DNA of 37,476 bases from a virus. The stretch is from positions 1 through 37,476 of the IMG/VR virus record IMGVR_UViG_3300031578_000159. One strand, written 5' to 3'. Within the stretch, counting starts at the first letter, position 1. Each line of letters starts with the position of its first letter. Shown one piece after another: positions 1,325-36,458 of the stretch. Both the position numbers and the translations under genes were made by a program. The notes under the pieces are model-generated. The model made no database searches. It saw nothing but the letters and a program-made list of their open reading frames with translations, and was not told the origin of the DNA.

Positions 1325-2037
1325 GCACCGGCCTCAGACACTTCGGGCACACTGGTTCCCCCAAGGCGTTCGTCGTCAGGCTTCCTCGGCACCTTGGACA
1401 GGACATCGGGCTCCTCCCAGAGCCCAACGATCAGATCCTCCAGCAGGATCCACTCGCCGAGCTGACCATCAATCAGCAGGTTCTTGTGCTGAGCCTTGTA
1501 AGCCTTCTCGGCGCACTCGCAGTTGACCTCATACTCCAGGTCGTTGATGATCGGCTTACCGCCTTGCCCGATCCCAACCTTGTTGGCCCGTGACACGTGC
1601 CACTTGCCTACCCCGTTGCAGCGGTGACAGTTGGGGTCGGCGAGCTTGGCCGCCTCGCTGGTCCCAACCCGATGGGGCTGGGCTTGGATCCTGAACCCAC
1701 CAACCTTGCAGTCCATGAGCCCGTATTGGATCCCAACCAGGTCATCGTACTCGGCACCTCCCCCGACATCGTCCTCGGTCATCGGGGTGACCTTGCGGGA
1801 TACTTGGATCTCGAACCCCACCGCACGCAAGATCTCCTCGGGCCAGTTCTTGGTGTCGGCCAGCAGCGACGCTACGGTCGCATCTTCCAGCTTCGGAAGT
1901 ACCTGGTCCGTCTTCTTGGGCCCCGCGTTGGCCACGGGGGCGGGGTGGTTCTTAGGCCGCTGTTTCAGCGTGGCCTTGCGGCGAGCTGTTCGGCGCTGGC
2001 GCTTCTGCTGGCGGCTTTTGTCGTTGCGCTTCGTCAT
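1321..2037 (-). CDS. hypothetical protein with a zinc-ribbon-like cysteine cluster, 238 aa
   Basis: Function unknown. A strongly basic N-terminus (about residues 1-30, many Arg, Lys and Gln) suggests nucleic-acid contact. Near the middle, CHRCNGVGKW followed about 30 residues later by CECAEKAY gives two CxxC/CxC pairs that could bind one zinc ion; the CxxCxGxG form resembles a DnaJ-type zinc repeat. The preferred start is the ATG at 2037, which has AGGA eight bases upstream. An ATG at 2052 is possible but has no ribosome site. The 5' end overlaps the AdoMetDC-like gene by about 85 bases in another frame, and the stop overlaps the next start (ATGA). Confidence 0.75.
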   Translation of the reverse strand: MTKRNDKSRQQKRQRRTARRKATLKQRPKNHPAPVANAGPKKTDQVLPKLEDATVASLLADTKNWPEEILRAVGFEIQVSRKVTPMTEDDVGGGAEYDDLVGIQYGLMDCKVGGFRIQAQPHRVGTSEAAKLADPNCHRCNGVGKWHVSRANKVGIGQGGKPIINDLEYEVNCECAEKAYKAQHKNLLIDGQLGEWILLEDLIVGLWEEPDVLSKVPRKPDDERLGGTSVPEVSEAGA

Positions 2038-2437
2038 TGGCAGGGTCCTCATAGGGTACGTCTTGGATCACCATCTCTTTTACAGTGAAGTGATGACGAA
2101 CAACCTCCTCCACGTCCTTGGCACTGAAGTCCTTGCACGAGTCGACCACGAGACGAAACTGATCCTGGAGCGGCCACGAATGGTACGCGATGTGGCTAGT
2201 CGATATGACACACTGCATCGTGAGGCCGCCATCGTCCGCCACAGCGTCCCCTACCGCGCCGTCGTTGGCCGGGACCTCGAACGCCTGCGGGGCCGCGAGG
2301 GGCGTCATCTTGATCCGATGCACGAGGAGCGCGAATAGGCTCTCGATGTATTTGACGTTGTCGAGGAGGGAACGGTTAAAAGACCCAGGATGGGTACGGA
2401 CACTACAGGCCACAAGGCGACCACTGTTAAGGTCCAT
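1952..2437 (-). CDS. S-adenosylmethionine decarboxylase (SpeD/SpeH-fold) family protein, probable pyruvoyl enzyme
   Basis: Small prokaryotic AdoMetDC-fold protein of 161 aa. The family makes its pyruvoyl cofactor by self-cleavage before a Ser and decarboxylates SAM for spermidine synthesis; some phage and bacterial relatives are reported (from memory) to act on arginine or ornithine instead. The core block ISTSHIAYHSWP (78-89) matches the family ISESHxxIHTWP signature. S81 is the expected pyruvoyl residue, H86 lies five residues on and C101 twenty residues on, the same spacing as Ser63/His68/Cys83 of the Thermotoga enzyme. The N-terminal LLVHRIKMTPL (37-47) fits the family's LVdxIGMTxL helix. 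Two oddities: Thr80 replaces the usual Glu before the cleavage site, and Thr73 replaces the processing Ser (Ser55). The 40-residue C-terminal tail is Pro/Ala-rich. GGGAGG lies five bases before the ATG. The exact substrate cannot be read from the sequence. Confidence 0.8.
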   Translation of the reverse strand: MDLNSGRLVACSVRTHPGSFNRSLLDNVKYIESLFALLVHRIKMTPLAAPQAFEVPANDGAVGDAVADDGGLTMQCVISTSHIAYHSWPLQDQFRLVVDSCKDFSAKDVEEVVRHHFTVKEMVIQDVPYEDPANDEAQRQKPPAEAPAPNSSPQGHAETAA

Positions 2438-5709: not shown

Positions 5710-5732
5710 AGCACCCCTTTACAGGATTATGG

Positions 5733-5762
5733 TTTGCATTTTGTAGTTTCGTGTTGTATAAT
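5733..5762 (+). promoter_or_regulatory. sigma70-like promoter for the plus-strand gene at 5780
   Basis: A consensus -10 box TATAAT lies at 5757-5762. TTTGCA at 5733-5738 is a plausible -35 box with an 18-base spacer. The predicted transcript start is near 5769, which leaves only about ten leader bases before the ATG at 5780, with GAGG at 5771-5774 as ribosome site. The region is clearly more AT-rich than the genes around it. No equally good minus-strand promoter was found for the divergent polymerase operon; the CATAAT read on the minus strand at 5731-5726 lacks a matching -35. Confidence 0.65.
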
Positions 5763-30698: not shown

Positions 30699-31238
30699 TT
30701 ATTCGTAGATGGCCCTGACGTGGAGCTGGCCTGGGGCCGGGGCCAAAAGCGCCCCGCCGAACCCGTCGTGGAACCACTCACTGAAGTTGTGGCCCTCGCC
30801 GCCCCTGAAGATTGTATTGGGGGGCAGCAACTTGTAGGTGTCTGGGAACCAAGGGGGTTGGAACGGCCGCGTCCTGGCCACAACGAGCTTCTTGTACTTG
30901 GGATAGAACGCGGCCAGGGCGTGGCGCCCTTGGTTCTCGATCCCGAGCACGTAGAGACGTTGGGTCCCTGCGTCGTTTTTCCAAATCGTGGTCCAGTACC
31001 TGACAAAACGCTCACCCCTTGCGAGATCTACCCGGCACGTAATCGCCGGGAGCCCTTGGTCTTGCCGGGTCGGAATGTACGCGATCTCAGCCACATCCTC
31101 GACTGGCAGCGAATCGCTAGACAGGCCCGGCTGCTCCAAAATAACCGCCCCCGAGCGGAGCACTGCGCGCCAAACAAAGTCGTGATTGCTGAGGGATTGA
31201 GCTTGCTCGATCGAAATAGGTTGCGGGAGTTGGGTCAC
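30699..31238 (-). CDS. hypothetical protein, 179 aa
   Basis: Not recognised. The GTG start overlaps the stop of the HNH gene by four bases (GTGA). The product is a mixed alpha/beta protein with an ordered core (DFVWRAVLRSGAVILEQPG, ITCRVDLARGERFVRYWTT, RLYVLGIENQGRHALAAFYPKYKKLVVARTRPF). It has no cysteine cluster, signal peptide or membrane segment. Between an endonuclease and appendage genes, it could be virion-related or a rider of the inserted endonuclease. Confidence 0.65.
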   Translation of the reverse strand: MTQLPQPISIEQAQSLSNHDFVWRAVLRSGAVILEQPGLSSDSLPVEDVAEIAYIPTRQDQGLPAITCRVDLARGERFVRYWTTIWKNDAGTQRLYVLGIENQGRHALAAFYPKYKKLVVARTRPFQPPWFPDTYKLLPPNTIFRGGEGHNFSEWFHDGFGGALLAPAPGQLHVRAIYE

Positions 31239-32266
31239 CTGACGCTCCTGTATGTTTGGCCTTTCAACATCTGGTAGACCCCCTTGACCGACAGTCCTGT
31301 TGCGTCCGCGATCTCAGTTGCTTTGATCTGACCTTCGCGGAACATCTTACGGTAACCCCTGACCTGCTCGTCAGTCATCTTGGCATTGTGGTTCCCCTGG
31401 CCGGTTCGCCGTCCAGGCACGAGTCCCATATCCTCCAGGTACCGCTTGGCCGTGTGGCCGCATACAGGGACCTTTTTACAGATTTCATGGGGCTTCGTGG
31501 TTCCTTGCCGGTACAGCTCCGCGACCTGATCCTTGTAGCGCTCGCGGCGCTCCGGGGTGATGTAGTTGAGGGCCTCGTCGGCCGAGGCCAGCGGGCCCCC
31601 AGCCCGTTGGTAGGTCAAACCGCGCAACATCCACCGGACGTTCTTGGTCGCCATCGAGGTCTCGCGGGCGATGTCGTGCATGTTCAGCTCGCCAGCCTTG
31701 AAACGAATCCGGTACTGCTCGGCCTGGGCGTCGGTGAGCTTGGCCCTGCTCGATCGTTCGCCGGAGAACACGCGGGCGTTGAACGCCGCTGACTCTTTGC
31801 CGCTTTTGATCTTGTGGCACCGGTAGCAGAGGAGCTGGCACTTCTTGAGTTCCTTTTCGATCTCTTCCCAGGATCCCGTGATCTGCTGGCCGATGTGGAA
31901 GCTCTTGGTCGCAGGGTCGATGTGATCAAACTGGAGGTTCTCAGTGGTCCTGCACTTGACGCACTTACCTCCGAGGATCTGGAGGGCTCGGTTGCGTTGT
32001 TTCTTCGCCTTACTGGAATGGTACTGTTTCATGTACCCCTTCCGCCAAACAGCGTCCTTTTTCTTCTCGTCCGGGAACCTGGTCTCAACACCAGCAAGCG
32101 ACGCTGCAAAAGGGCCACCAGCAGTCGCACGAGTGTAGCCCGTCAAGATCTGCTCCAGGGTGGATCGAGGCACCCCAGCCTCCCGACGAATGTCGAGGAA
32201 GCTGAGTTTCCCTTGATTGTAGAGTTGGCGGTAGAGGCGGACCTGAGGATCGGAGAGGTATGGCAT
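31235..32266 (-). CDS. HNH homing-type endonuclease with four helix-turn-helix modules, 343 aa
   Basis: The HNH domain spans residues about 93-160: zinc site C102-x2-C105 and C147-x2-C150, the catalytic D114-H115 in LQFDHIDP, and H151 in CYRCHKIK. Four DNA-reading modules flank it, each with a Y/R-rich helix, a turn and a second helix ending in LxGxTY or similar: residues about 6-50 (one before the HNH) and about 176-222, 238-283 and 297-343 (three after). Modules 1, 2 and 4 read VRLYRQLYNQGKLSFLDI, AEQYRIRFKAGELNMHDI and VRGYRKMFREGQIKATEI. Free-standing enzymes of this type (NUMOD-like) cut phage DNA and spread between genomes. It lies alone among virion genes with its own AT-rich upstream region. 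Confidence 0.88.
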   Translation of the reverse strand: MPYLSDPQVRLYRQLYNQGKLSFLDIRREAGVPRSTLEQILTGYTRATAGGPFAASLAGVETRFPDEKKKDAVWRKGYMKQYHSSKAKKQRNRALQILGGKCVKCRTTENLQFDHIDPATKSFHIGQQITGSWEEIEKELKKCQLLCYRCHKIKSGKESAAFNARVFSGERSSRAKLTDAQAEQYRIRFKAGELNMHDIARETSMATKNVRWMLRGLTYQRAGGPLASADEALNYITPERRERYKDQVAELYRQGTTKPHEICKKVPVCGHTAKRYLEDMGLVPGRRTGQGNHNAKMTDEQVRGYRKMFREGQIKATEIADATGLSVKGVYQMLKGQTYRSVR

Positions 32267-32330
32267 CCCTCAACTGTAACACATCAAGTTTACAAATGCT
32301 ACAGTTGAAAAGCTCAACAATTACCCAGGT
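32267..32330 (-). promoter_or_regulatory. AT-rich region with inverted repeats upstream of the HNH gene, probable promoter/operator
   Basis: CAACTGTA at 32271-32278 and TACAGTTG at 32300-32307 form an 8-bp perfect inverted repeat with a 21-base spacer. A second small hairpin, GTTGA (32304-32308) with TCAAC (32314-32318), overlaps it. On the minus strand, TTGAGC (four of six to the -35 consensus) is followed 17 bases later by TGTAAA (four of six to the -10). The AT content is well above the neighbouring genes. The likely use is a promoter for the endonuclease gene with autoregulation by one of its helix-turn-helix modules. Confidence 0.5.
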
Positions 32331-32849
32331 TTACGTCTCGTCATACGCGATAGTGAGCGTTTCCGTCACAGTAAGCCCAGGCGCTGCGGCCGGAATTACG
32401 TCGGCCTGCATGACCAGGTAGTCGGCGATGTCGGTGTTGGTTCCCGAGTACGAACCGGTGTTGAACACACCGAGGTCCAAGGGAGAACCCGAAGTGTATG
32501 AGAAAAAGTCCGTCGCGGCCACGCCGCTGTCGGTGTTGGCCGGGGTCGCGTAGGCCCCGATGCCCCCGGCATACATCTCGATCCCGTCCCAGGCGGGGAT
32601 AGGCTTGGCGCCATCCGAGAACGCACGGGGATAGGTGATGCCGCTCGTGGGACCTGGGTCGCCTATGCGGAGCCGCAGGAACTTCTCGTAGCTGCGCTCG
32701 ATCCCGGAACCGGGACGCACGATCGGATCATTCAGGTCGAAGTTCGCGTTGTCCGCTGACTTGAACCGGATCGTGCCGCTTGTCTTGCTGGTGGCGGTTT
32801 CGGAACCGCTGGTACCATTCCATTCTCTGATGTCAACGACGGCTGCCAT
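32331..32849 (-). CDS. virion-like protein, 172 aa
   Basis: Small soluble protein of beta character without a recognised family. It begins AAVVDIREWNGTSGSE, with TSGTIRFKSADNANFDLNDPIVRPGSG as strand-turn segments, then EKFLRLRIGDPG and a Gly/Thr/Ser-rich middle, and ends LTVTETLTIAYDET. The pattern resembles a minor virion or decoration protein. A very good AGAGGAG precedes the ATG. Nothing more specific can be stated. Confidence 0.65.
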   Translation of the reverse strand: MAAVVDIREWNGTSGSETATSKTSGTIRFKSADNANFDLNDPIVRPGSGIERSYEKFLRLRIGDPGPTSGITYPRAFSDGAKPIPAWDGIEMYAGGIGAYATPANTDSGVAATDFFSYTSGSPLDLGVFNTGSYSGTNTDIADYLVMQADVIPAAAPGLTVTETLTIAYDET

Positions 32850-32898
32850 CTGGGTCTCCTCTGGTCAGGTGCTGGTTTTAGATAACCGGCGCCCGGAG

Positions 32899-33687
32899 CT
32901 ACAACTGGGTCTTGGACAACTGCTTGGCGAAGTTCTGGTCCCCGTAGGCATCGCCGAAGTAATCCGCGAGATACTGCTCGACGTTCCGCTTGGTGTCCGG
33001 GCTGACCGATAGGATCTCGGTCACGGCCTCACGGGCCACCGAGTAGGTCGTGCCCGCTGCCTTGATCTTGACCTCGGCGCCCACGGAGGTCACCTTGCCG
33101 TCCAGGATCTTGCCTTCGGTAAAGAACCGGACCTCGTCGCCCGAGTTGAGGTTCGGGACTCCAGCGGATAGCGCATTCCCGAAGGACACCGTCGAGGCTT
33201 GGATCGACATCCGGCGGCGACGCTCGGTCACGATCGCTGAGATATCATCCCTCGCCCGGCGGGACAGGTACTGAGTGCCGTCGCTGTGGCTCGACACCTC
33301 CCAGGTGTCCCCCATCTCCTGATCCAAGAACATGGTGCTGGACACTGCCAACATCCTGCTCTTGTCCTCGACCTGACGGGTCACGACATGACGGTTGATC
33401 ATGAGGCTGACAGCGCCCTCGGCCGTGTACTGCTTGGCCGTTTCGAGGAGCGGAGCCACATGGCCGTTGAACGTCGAGGCGACGAACGCCGTGACATCGT
33501 TGGTCGTGACTGGCCCGATGGCCTTGTCGAACCCGATCAACAGATGACCGGAGTTCTCGTCGACTCGCTTGAAGTCAGCGATGTGCATGTCGCCGCGATG
33601 ACCCACGACTTTGTCGAGCTTCTTGCCCAACTTATCGAGCATCCGGTCACGGGCCTCGGTCAAGCTGTTCGGGTTGTTCGGAATCAT
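32899..33687 (-). CDS. hypothetical protein, 262 aa
   Basis: The start at 33687 is used since GGAGG lies five bases upstream; the frame continues to 33741 without a ribosome site. The product has a helical N-terminus (LTEARDRMLDKLGKKLDKVVG), a middle alpha/beta part (GHLLIGFDKAIGPVTTNDVTAFVASTF, VTRQVEDKSRMLAVSSTMFLDQEMG), basic TERRRRM, and a KOW/SH3-like beta segment near residues 190-230 (NSGDEVRFFTEGKILDGKVTSV). The latter type of strand pattern is common in virion or nucleic-acid-binding proteins. The family is not recognised. Confidence 0.7.
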   Translation of the reverse strand: MIPNNPNSLTEARDRMLDKLGKKLDKVVGHRGDMHIADFKRVDENSGHLLIGFDKAIGPVTTNDVTAFVASTFNGHVAPLLETAKQYTAEGAVSLMINRHVVTRQVEDKSRMLAVSSTMFLDQEMGDTWEVSSHSDGTQYLSRRARDDISAIVTERRRRMSIQASTVSFGNALSAGVPNLNSGDEVRFFTEGKILDGKVTSVGAEVKIKAAGTTYSVAREAVTEILSVSPDTKRNVEQYLADYFGDAYGDQNFAKQLSKTQL

Positions 33688-33937: not shown

Positions 33938-34960
33938 TCAGAGGTTCTCTAGCAACTCGCCGAGCTGCTTCTTGATGTCGGACAGCCTGACCGAGCTGGG
34001 CCCGAAGCGCCGTTGAATCTGAGCAGCTACGGGTCGCACGGCCTGGAGCATCGAGTTGACCCATGCTGGGGTGTGCCAGGTCCTTCTCGCCAGCCCGGCC
34101 TTCTTGGGCGGGCTCGCATTCTTGAGAGCCGGGAAGTAGTCATCCAGGCGCTTGTTCAAAAATCGCCGGCACGCATCGTTGGCCAGCCACCTTGGGATCC
34201 CCAGGGACTGCTCGGCCAACGTGATGGTCCGGTACCGGGAGAACGACCAGTTCAAGATCGTCGCGATCGGGATCCCCTTCTCGACCTCCAGCTCGACCAA
34301 CCGAGGAGGCATCTCGTCCCGGCACTCCTTCGAGCAGTACACCAACCCGGTGTTGTTGATCCACATATGACGCGGCACGTTAGGCCAATCTTCGATCTCA
34401 GACTCACAGACGCAGCAGACCTGGTCGGTCGCGAGGTACCGGAACTGCGGTTGCAGGGTCTCCTCGTCCTTGGATTCCATCTCCATCGCGTTTGCACGCA
34501 ACGCCTGGGTGGCGGCGTCGATAAGTTTCTTGACATCTTCAACCGGACGTTGGTAGAGGTACGCGACTTCGTCAGCCGAGAGCGCGTCTGTGCCCTGCTG
34601 GTGCATGTAGGCAAGGACGCAATTGGCCGCGAAGGGATAGTCAATATGGTACGCGCAGTCTTCCAGGCCACAGGGCGCAAAGATCGTTTCCCTGACCACT
34701 GGGCAACGGAACCCTGTCTGGAACGGCGGGGCCCGGTCGAGGTTAACTACTGAGAACCCCATGACTGAGAGCCACTTCCTCATCGCCGCCTTGCGCGGCT
34801 CACCGGCCTCAGGATACTCCTCCAAGACTTCACGCGAGCGCTCATCGAGCGAACAATCAACGCAGCTTCGATTCGATGGTAGGACGTCAAACCCGGCCTT
34901 GACCAGGCTCGGGTTGGCAGCTCGACACTGCTTGATCTCGATGTTGAATCTGCAAGCCAT
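33938..34960 (-). CDS. putative regulator: cysteine-rich protein with sigma-region-4-like HTH, 340 aa
   Basis: Three zinc-like cysteine groups are visible: N-terminal C3/C12 and C33-x2-C36; CGLEDCAYHIDYP with C97, C102 and C114; and CCVCESEI (C182-C185) with VYCSKECRD (C209, C213), a TRASH/MYND-like form. After the second group, residues about 125-157 (DALSADEVAYLYQRPVEDVKKLI) look like a degenerate helix-turn-helix of the sigma-70 region 4 type, where typical members read TLEEIG...TRERIRQIE. Small bacterial and phage proteins with C.x4.CxYHxDYP followed by such an HTH occur (from memory). Residues 220-340 are helical and basic. It is the first gene after the 1.1-kb gene-free region and has a clear GAGG ribosome site, so a late transcription regulator is a reasonable inference. 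Confidence 0.6.
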   Translation of the reverse strand: MACRFNIEIKQCRAANPSLVKAGFDVLPSNRSCVDCSLDERSREVLEEYPEAGEPRKAAMRKWLSVMGFSVVNLDRAPPFQTGFRCPVVRETIFAPCGLEDCAYHIDYPFAANCVLAYMHQQGTDALSADEVAYLYQRPVEDVKKLIDAATQALRANAMEMESKDEETLQPQFRYLATDQVCCVCESEIEDWPNVPRHMWINNTGLVYCSKECRDEMPPRLVELEVEKGIPIATILNWSFSRYRTITLAEQSLGIPRWLANDACRRFLNKRLDDYFPALKNASPPKKAGLARRTWHTPAWVNSMLQAVRPVAAQIQRRFGPSSVRLSDIKKQLGELLENL

Positions 34961-34983
34961 TTTTCCTCACTTTACAAACTACG

Positions 34984-35034
34984 GTCCTTTTACAGCGTGG
35001 CCGAGCAAAAGCACGGCCGAGTCCTGTAAAGGAC
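34984..35034. repeat. near-perfect inverted repeat upstream of the regulator gene
   Basis: GTCCTTTTACAG at 34984-34995 pairs with CTGTAAAGGAC at 35024-35034, an 11-bp stem with one extra T on the left. Inside it, CGTG (34996-34999) pairs with CACG (35012-35015). The loop also carries a direct repeat GGCCGAG. No T-run follows on either strand, so it is not a simple terminator. It lies about 25 to 75 bases before the regulator start and could be a 5' leader structure, an operator or the 3' edge of the structured region. Confidence 0.6.
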
Positions 35035-35645
35035 TTGGTTAGCGGAGCCTCGCGGGCTCCAACAACGAGGCGCGGCGAACAGCTACCGCGTCAACCGCCC
35101 CGGGGGGTCGTGTTGTTTGTAGGATGGCACGACTTGGTCTCGGCTGGTACCAGGGTTAGACCCCGCAGTAGTCCCAGGACGGTTCGGCAGATCGGCGCTT
35201 AGGCGTGCGACAACGGTGCTCACTCTACCTCGCGGTCGAGGATGACACCCGCCGGGAGATTGTTAGATGCGCAGCTCTCCTCCGTCATACGTTGGATCTG
35301 GGTATGCTAGCGGTGACGGTCAGCTTCATCGAAGACCGTCACCTTGGCCGGGCAATCCCCGGAGCCGTCCTTTGGAGTTCCAACCCCGACCCCCGGGCTC
35401 TTGGGACATACGCCGTTGCTGAGGGAGACCTCACACCCACGTGGCTAAGAGAAATCGCGTGTCCGACCGGGCAACCCCGGACGCGCTGGACCATGGGACT
35501 GTTCGCGAGACAGAGGTCCAATGACTGCCACAGCGAATCGATCATAGAGATAGCCAGAGACACTACGCCAACCTCGCTGCCCCGCTTTGCTCGGGGCACG
35601 CCCAGGCTCATCACGACTCGACCACCACCACGATCACCCACGCCT

Positions 35646-35691
35646 GGTGTCCTCCGCCGTCCGCGACCATCAAGGACGAGCGGAGGGCACC
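35646..35691. other. 17-bp hairpin inside the gene-free region
   Basis: The left arm 35646-35662 (GGTGTCCTCCGCCGTCC) pairs with 35674-35691 with one bulged A (35679), one G-U type pair and an 11-base loop (35663-35673). Such a long stem is very unlikely by chance in about 50 bases. No T-run follows on either strand, so it is not an intrinsic terminator. Confidence 0.75.
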
Positions 35692-35786
35692 CATTTACAT
35701 AGAGCCCATTGCGAAGCCGCTGGGCCCTCGGTAACGACATGGCCCACGTCACCTTATTCCATTTCCAGCCCGCGAAGCGGGCTGCG

Positions 35787-35962
35787 GGAAAATAGAAAAA
35801 GGAGAGAGTACAAGCAAGGCATGGCACTTCTCTCGGCCGGAGAGGTCAGCGGTTTGACGGCCCCGCGCCTGACGAGCTGGCCTAACCGGTTGACCGTCGC
35901 GGCCGGTGCATGGTGCATGGGCCGCCGGAGAGGGGGCTCAATGCCTTGGGTACTCTCTCCTT
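35787..35962 (-). ncRNA. candidate minus-strand small RNA domain closed by a 20-bp stem and followed by a U-rich tail
   Basis: AAGGAGAGAGTAC (35799-35811) pairs with GTACTCTCTCCTT (35950-35962), and AAGGCAT (35816-35822) with ATGCCTT (35941-35947), with a 4/2-base internal loop. The 118 enclosed bases contain further stems: CTCTC/GAGAG, GTCAG/CTGAC, and GCGGCC/GGCCGC with TGCA/TGCA inside. Read on the minus strand, the closing stem is followed at once by TTTTTCTATTTT (35798-35787), as in an intrinsic terminator or a terminated small RNA. The plus strand also has a weaker T-rich end (TTGTATTATT). No convincing promoter was found; TATAGT read on the minus strand at 36048-36043 lacks a -35 box. 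Confidence 0.5.
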
Positions 35963-36104
35963 GTATTATTCCGGGAGTCGCTTCGCGCCTCCGAATGATG
36001 CTATGAGGGTGTTGATCGTGACACCCGTGCGTCTCGAATTTGACTATACAATATGCAAACGCTATGCCAGTACGGGCAACGGTCGTACGCCCTTGCGCGG
36101 CGCG

Positions 36105-36458
36105 CTACGGTTTGGCTTTGGGTTGCTTGGTCTTGGAGGTCTTTCCGTACTCGGTGCAGCCCTGGTGGTCAGGTTTGATCGACTGGCAGCAGACCTGCCA
36201 GGCCGTCCTCGCGCAGTATTCTTTGGCGGCGGGCGAACCAGACTCGCCCTTCTTGCCCGCGCGGCACTTCAGGTAGACCTCTTGGCACGCCGGAGGCATC
36301 CCGAGTGGTACCGCGACCACGGTGTGGCCCAGCGTGATGTTCTCGAATTCGATCTTACCCTGGCGGACCAGGGCTCGGAACGATGTGGCTTCATCGCGGA
36401 GCCCCGCAGCCTTCAGGGCCGCGTAGATTTCGCTCGGGCTTTTTCGGCAGCAACTCAT
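36105..36458 (-). CDS. cysteine-rich hypothetical protein, 117 aa
   Basis: Not recognised. It has several cysteines (CC at 3-4 and further single and paired ones in ACQEVYLKC, YCARTAWQVCC and GCTEYG), with a Lys-rich C-terminus (KTSKTKQPKAKP). The N-terminal 50 residues look like a small winged or helical domain (SPSEIYAALKAAGLRDEATSFRALVRQGKI), similar in outline to a DNA-binding helix pair. The ATG overlaps the stop of the upstream 72-aa gene (ATGA at 36455-36458). It is the last gene before the gene-free region. Confidence 0.65.
   Translation of the reverse strand: MSCCRKSPSEIYAALKAAGLRDEATSFRALVRQGKIEFENITLGHTVVAVPLGMPPACQEVYLKCRAGKKGESGSPAAKEYCARTAWQVCCQSIKPDHQGCTEYGKTSKTKQPKAKP

Follow-up and report, generated by a model that had tools for sequence, protein, structure and literature searches.

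A candidate structured noncoding RNA in the only long gene-free stretch of a jumbo-type phage fragment

Large noncoding RNAs of the GOLLD class are encoded in or near tRNA arrays, and further orphan RNAs of phages presumably act in trans as stable RNAs. GOLLD occurs in phages and prophages and has no known function; its 3' part is conserved and well defined, whereas its 5' part is variable (PMC12286853). ROOL, likewise found in phages and prophages, is large and ornate and has no known protein partner, and both RNAs form unusual cage-like complexes, again of unknown function (PMC12286853). Here we report on a single gene-free stretch of viral DNA, part of which is predicted to fold into a multi-branched structure, and we discuss whether it acts as an RNA or at the level of DNA.

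The window, by which we mean the whole stretch of DNA analysed (37,476 bp), is the complete IMG/VR virus record IMGVR_UViG_3300031578_000159. Its recognisable gene products are a portal, a terminase, a head protease and a DNA polymerase. The portal and terminase are 30–38% identical to those of the jumbo phages PaBG, Vibrio phage GR7B and Rhizobium phage RHph_I42, and the window is a fragment of a large, uncultivated jumbo-type phage. All genes are located on the minus strand with the exception of one weak call, and ARAGORN found no tRNA in the window. An HNH endonuclease gene with helix–turn–helix domains (31235–32266, minus strand) resides within the late gene cluster. Close by, the minus strand of 32001–33000 seemed structured when few shuffles were used and was discarded, the overlapping 32260–32900 having a z-score of only -2.5 upon refolding.

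A gene caller using a codon model trained on the window left only a single gap that reaches 450 bp, 34961–36107; once the stop codon is allowed for, the true intergenic stretch spans 34961–36104 (1,144 bp) and has no coding frame on either strand. The sequence-only reading that drew attention to this locus had described about 1.04 kb as gene-free in a genome otherwise poor in spacers. Both statements are borne out, since no second gap reaches 450 bp, coding density is 95%, and sliding-window coding scores are negative throughout the gap in six of six frames. The longest open reading frames of the gap (165, 162 and 139 aa) have nearly equal GC content across the three codon positions; in the genes of the window it is roughly 0.7–0.84 at the third, 0.52–0.66 at the first and 0.38–0.54 at the second position. 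Searches of Pfam and PHROGs with these reading frames gave nothing above chance. The gap is noncoding, and a coding or decayed gene was rejected on the codon model, Pfam and PHROGs. It is flanked downstream by a Cys-rich gene of 340 aa (33938–34960, minus strand), which in relatives heads the operon running to terminase and portal, and upstream by a gene of 117 aa without a family (36105–36458, minus strand), on which a plus-strand RNA would converge.

Rfam covariance models, the comparison suggested at the outset, found no match beyond chance on either strand, be it at the gathering level or with E up to 10; the best scores were at most 19 bits, far under the gathering scores. Membership in GOLLD, ROOL, OLE, HEARO, introns, RNase P and tmRNA is excluded for these classes as modelled, and riboswitches and all other Rfam families likewise lack a covariance-model match. 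The initial impression that no known RNA class could be recognised therefore agrees with Rfam and ARAGORN, by which GOLLD, ROOL and tRNA are unmatched. The conserved 3' part and variable 5' part of GOLLD resemble the present layout by analogy only; unlike GOLLD, the predicted RNA described here has no covariance match and no tRNA nearby. With ROOL the candidate would share the character of a large orphan phage RNA, but again there is no covariance match, nor is there a tRNA island in the window.

The related phages scanned in the course of this work harbour a number of RNAs and oddities of their own. Two related jumbo phages encode class A RNase P RNAs (G042 L256:2371-2647, minus strand; G034 L264:380-657, plus strand), both full length at 148–149 bits, with the universal motifs retained, and situated inside large tRNA arrays, of which the parts scanned contain 27 and 32 tRNAs. 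We found no clear report of a phage-encoded RNase P RNA in the literature searched, and its occurrence in a phage merits separate study. The same two phages contain abiF RNA matches (L256:8714-8750, minus strand; L263:13308-13344, plus strand). A permuted tmRNA match to Rfam in G014 (L081:18935-19218, minus strand; 60.8 bits, gathering score 47) lies among tRNAs. G004 carries two HEARO RNAs (L071:652-912 and 1846-2094, minus strand) and reads as if TAA were recoded: an internal TAA is reported in a conserved gene, and reading through TAA yields more long open reading frames. Gene-free stretches without an Rfam match occur in G002 (L104:749-3019, 2.3 kb), parts of which fold well (z-scores to -8.8), and in G020 (L117:8282-10182, 1.9 kb), which does not fold well. 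As homologues of the gap these two, together with the long gene-free stretches of G004 (L071) and G034 (L261), were rejected because their sequences are unrelated.

Folding energies were compared with those of dinucleotide shuffles (100 for the core) and expressed as z-scores. The plus strand of 35560–36040 has a minimum free energy of -231 and a z-score of -7.2, the minus strand a z-score of -4.2, and on neither strand did any of the 100 shuffles fold as well. Seventeen genic control windows of 481 nt ranged from -3.1 to +1.0. In windows of 200 nt the z-score fell to -7.4 on the plus strand and -4.7 on the minus strand around 35800, and most windows across 35001–35500 were unremarkable; moderately low values at 34901–35100 coincide with a palindrome common to relatives, a probable operator. 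The left half of the gap (35041–35559) is noncoding and, isolated hairpins aside, no more structured than chance (z-scores -0.6 and +0.2 on the plus and minus strand), while the entire 1.05 kb scores -6.1 (plus) and -4.2 (minus). The excess of folding is confined to 35560–36040, so that the structured part measures about 480 nt rather than 1,040. The sequence-only reading had proposed a large structured RNA tiled with hairpins throughout; this is the best reading for 35560–36040, which folds significantly and better on the plus than on the minus strand, and is not supported for the whole 1.04 kb, since the left half behaves like its shuffles and the far left is a conserved, probably regulatory palindrome. 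Counting perfect stems (loops of 3–40 nt) against expectation from shuffles gave six of at least 7 bp where 2.6 were expected and two of at least 8 bp where 0.6 were expected. Short perfect stems are thus about two- to threefold over chance, a mild excess, and ordinary genic windows contain up to three.

These figures bear on the sceptical reading that nothing beyond the operator is functional, the gap being noncoding DNA left over from a rearrangement, with a few palindromes due to chance, or else a gene whose codon use is unusual. The shuffle-like left half, the modest surplus of short stems and the different arrangement of this locus in relatives all agree with it. We nonetheless hold it to be very improbable in view of the z-score of the core, equalled by none of 100 shuffles, of a long-range stem of 13 + 8 bp, and of the general experience that phages with dense genomes seldom leave 1.1 kb idle.

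The individual stems named by the sequence-only reading all exist. In the left half, 35312–35343 forms a perfect 10-bp hairpin (35312–35321/35334–35343) with a 12-nt loop, and 35420–35433 forms a 5-bp hairpin whose loop, GAGA in the plus reading, is of the GNRA type. The structured core, a candidate noncoding RNA on the plus strand (35560–36040), has a multi-branched predicted fold with long-range closing helices. It includes a bulged 17-bp hairpin (12 + 5 bp with one G–U pair; 35646–35662/35674–35691, within 35646–35691) with pair probabilities of 0.98–1.0, and an 8-bp hairpin with a GAA loop (35766–35784). In its main arm (35797–35964), stems of 13 and 11 bp run up to a three-way junction that bears two hairpins; the stem of 13 + 8 bp at 35799–35822/35941–35962 is approximately the 20-bp stem noted originally. 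On the plus strand the core is closed by a long-range helix, 35629–35636/36013–36020, and a further plus-strand helix, 35066–35073/36029–36036, would link both ends of the gap.

Which strand might be transcribed is a separate question. The plus-over-minus difference of the core amounts to 3.0 z units, compared with a mean of +0.1 and a standard deviation of 0.88 in the 17 genic controls; with few shuffles the strand difference of the full-length fold is inseparable from control noise, whereas that of the 481-nt core with its better controls is separable. The main arm reaches -99.3 kcal/mol (z-score -6.95) on the plus strand and -84.4 (z-score -6.7) on the minus strand, and several of its helices require G–U pairs that are present on the plus strand only. 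The GNRA-type loop of 35420–35433 and the helix linking the ends of the gap are likewise plus-strand features. The plus strand is hence favoured, though not proven, as the source of a core RNA, and both strands may be transcribed. The region has a single sigma70-like promoter, CTGGCA-16-TATAGT at 36043–36070, on the minus strand; it points into the gap, and reading from 36070 to 36043 it stops at the border of the structured part. It contains GTTTGCATATTGTA, which recurs at 5732 (plus strand) ahead of another gene, and GTTTGCATWTTGTA, common to 5732–5745 (plus) and 36047–36060 (minus) with two sites against 0.09 expected, is a candidate phage promoter motif. An RNA starting near 36036 on the minus strand could accordingly be envisaged, either as a separate RNA or as a structured leader of about 1 kb for the operon of the 340-aa gene. 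The abutting promoter, the second occurrence of its GTTTGCATATTGTA upstream of the gene at 5732 and the location of nearly all genes on the minus strand would suit it. We judge it decidedly unlikely, as the minus fold is the weaker one (z-score -4.2 versus -7.2, control standard deviation 0.9), a conserved element at 34984–35034 already precedes the 340-aa gene, and no such long structured leader occurs in relatives.

A role of the core as DNA has to be weighed against either RNA. The segment 35771–35987, comprising the main arm and two flanking hairpins, is an imperfect palindrome of 217 bp that matches its own reverse complement with 61% identity over 225 aligned positions (E 7e-6). Both strands fold because of this palindrome. 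A palindrome does so regardless of what it is for, and a role at the DNA level would therefore give low z-scores as well. The segment could operate as double-stranded or cruciform DNA, for instance as a site of replication, packaging or resolution or as the remnant of a palindromic mobile element. The main arm indeed stays significant when folded with DNA parameters (z-score -5.3), and the locus is lineage-specific in a neighbourhood rearranged relative to relatives. Yet the preference for the plus strand exceeds that of the genic controls and would be needless for a pure DNA element, and the gap contains none of the signs of a replication origin that we looked for, namely DnaA-box-like sites, iterons or an AT-rich stretch (GC 62%). 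The terminase gene is 9 kb distant, and inspection by eye showed no target-site duplication; no sequence rule is known for a packaging (pac) site in this phage group. On balance we regard a DNA element, the kind of alternative that the sequence-only reading had named, as rather unlikely.

How the locus compares with its relatives was assessed in about 110 related loci, gathered by alignment-based scans with the flanking proteins, the terminase, the portal and a 280-aa protein as queries. The nearest portal segment is 57% identical (G042). The downstream 340-aa gene was found in 16 of the 31 records searched and also in G004 and G011, and the late operon of relatives consists of the 340-aa gene, the 280-aa gene, terminase and portal. 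Most relatives have a divergent gene on the far side of the spacer that precedes the 340-aa gene and hence this operon, and where this spacer is readable it holds no similar element; such spacers are at most about 0.8 kb, less structured and unrelated in sequence. In the closest group the 340-aa gene adjoins a divergent gene that weakly matches the gene at the right end of the window, which looks RuvC-like by eye. From this gene order it follows that the candidate RNA and three genes sit between genes that are seemingly neighbours elsewhere. Homologues of the gap were sought by blastn in 50,697 phage records and in about 60 related phage records, by nhmmer, and by k-mer sharing with other gene-free stretches, all with chance-level matches only. 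Searching 2.7 Mb of related loci with a covariance model (R1) built on the main arm recovered only the window itself; sister phages may exist. A DNA pattern of the duplicated CCGGGCAAYCCC had no match in sequence collections. The pattern of the 10-bp hairpin (35312–35343) matched a dispersed palindrome of Anaerolineae MAGs, GGTGACGGTCACTT...AAGTGACCGTCACC (L406–L438), with which it shares stem and loop length; 396 genomes of this class provided no further link to Anaerolineae hosts.

The part of the gap that does recur in relatives is its left edge. The first 70 bp or so beside the downstream gene contain an inverted repeat, GTCCTTTTACAG ... CTGTAAAGGAC in the plus reading (34984–35034), with the core TTTACAG-N28-CTGTAAA. 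Across the 4.24 Mb of loci retrieved, TTTACAG-N28-CTGTAA turns up at only three positions, every one of them immediately before the same 340-aa gene: in the window (34984–35034) and, with identical spacing, in its distant relatives G039 (L233:12039) and G053 (L235:12095). The pattern, picked after it had been seen, was absent from 100 shuffles of the window, and among spacings of 5–59 none besides 28 gave more than two distinct matches, 28 giving five when matches on either strand are counted. In some further relatives TTTACA and TTGTAA stand at the same place with a different spacing. The repeat is probably the promoter or operator of the terminase–portal operon, and the symmetry of the TTTACAG palindrome suggests that it is perhaps bidirectional. 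G039 and G053 offer a close parallel, a divergent regulatory region just upstream of the same late gene; they differ in that their spacer does not exceed 0.8 kb and lacks a comparably folded core, whereas here the candidate RNA and extra genes intervene before the next conserved neighbour.

Taken together, we give an even chance to the reading that 35560–36040 specifies a lineage-specific structured RNA of about 0.4–0.5 kb, transcribed from the plus strand and divergent from the late operon. The noncoding gap, the significant fold, the plus preference and the conserved regulatory palindrome speak for it, and a plus-strand unit fits the layout of relatives, in which divergent units flank the stretch upstream of the 340-aa gene. 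Against it stand the failure to find a homologue in the collections searched, a sigma70-like promoter on the minus strand only, the lack of any terminator seen on the plus strand of the region, and the unstructured left half. Transcription of such a plus-strand RNA would begin in the divergent regulatory region at 34.98–35.04 kb, whose palindrome would also serve the late operon on the minus strand, traverse about 0.5 kb of weakly structured sequence and stop close to 36.04 kb, with the 3' terminus pairing back to earlier sequence. The folded core would have several arms, one of them long and branched (35797–35964), and the product may be a stable RNA acting in trans during infection in the manner of other orphan phage RNAs. 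The stronger proposal of an undescribed class of phage RNA, with a core of about 0.5 kb and a weak 5' part of about 0.5 kb, divergently transcribed and found in one jumbo-type lineage, we consider quite unlikely. As a single sequence at present without a homologue, the element is a candidate for transcript testing, not a class. If the plus-strand RNA is real, the presence of yet another, unrelated structured RNA in a phage of the jumbo type would suggest a repeated origin of RNAs of this kind.
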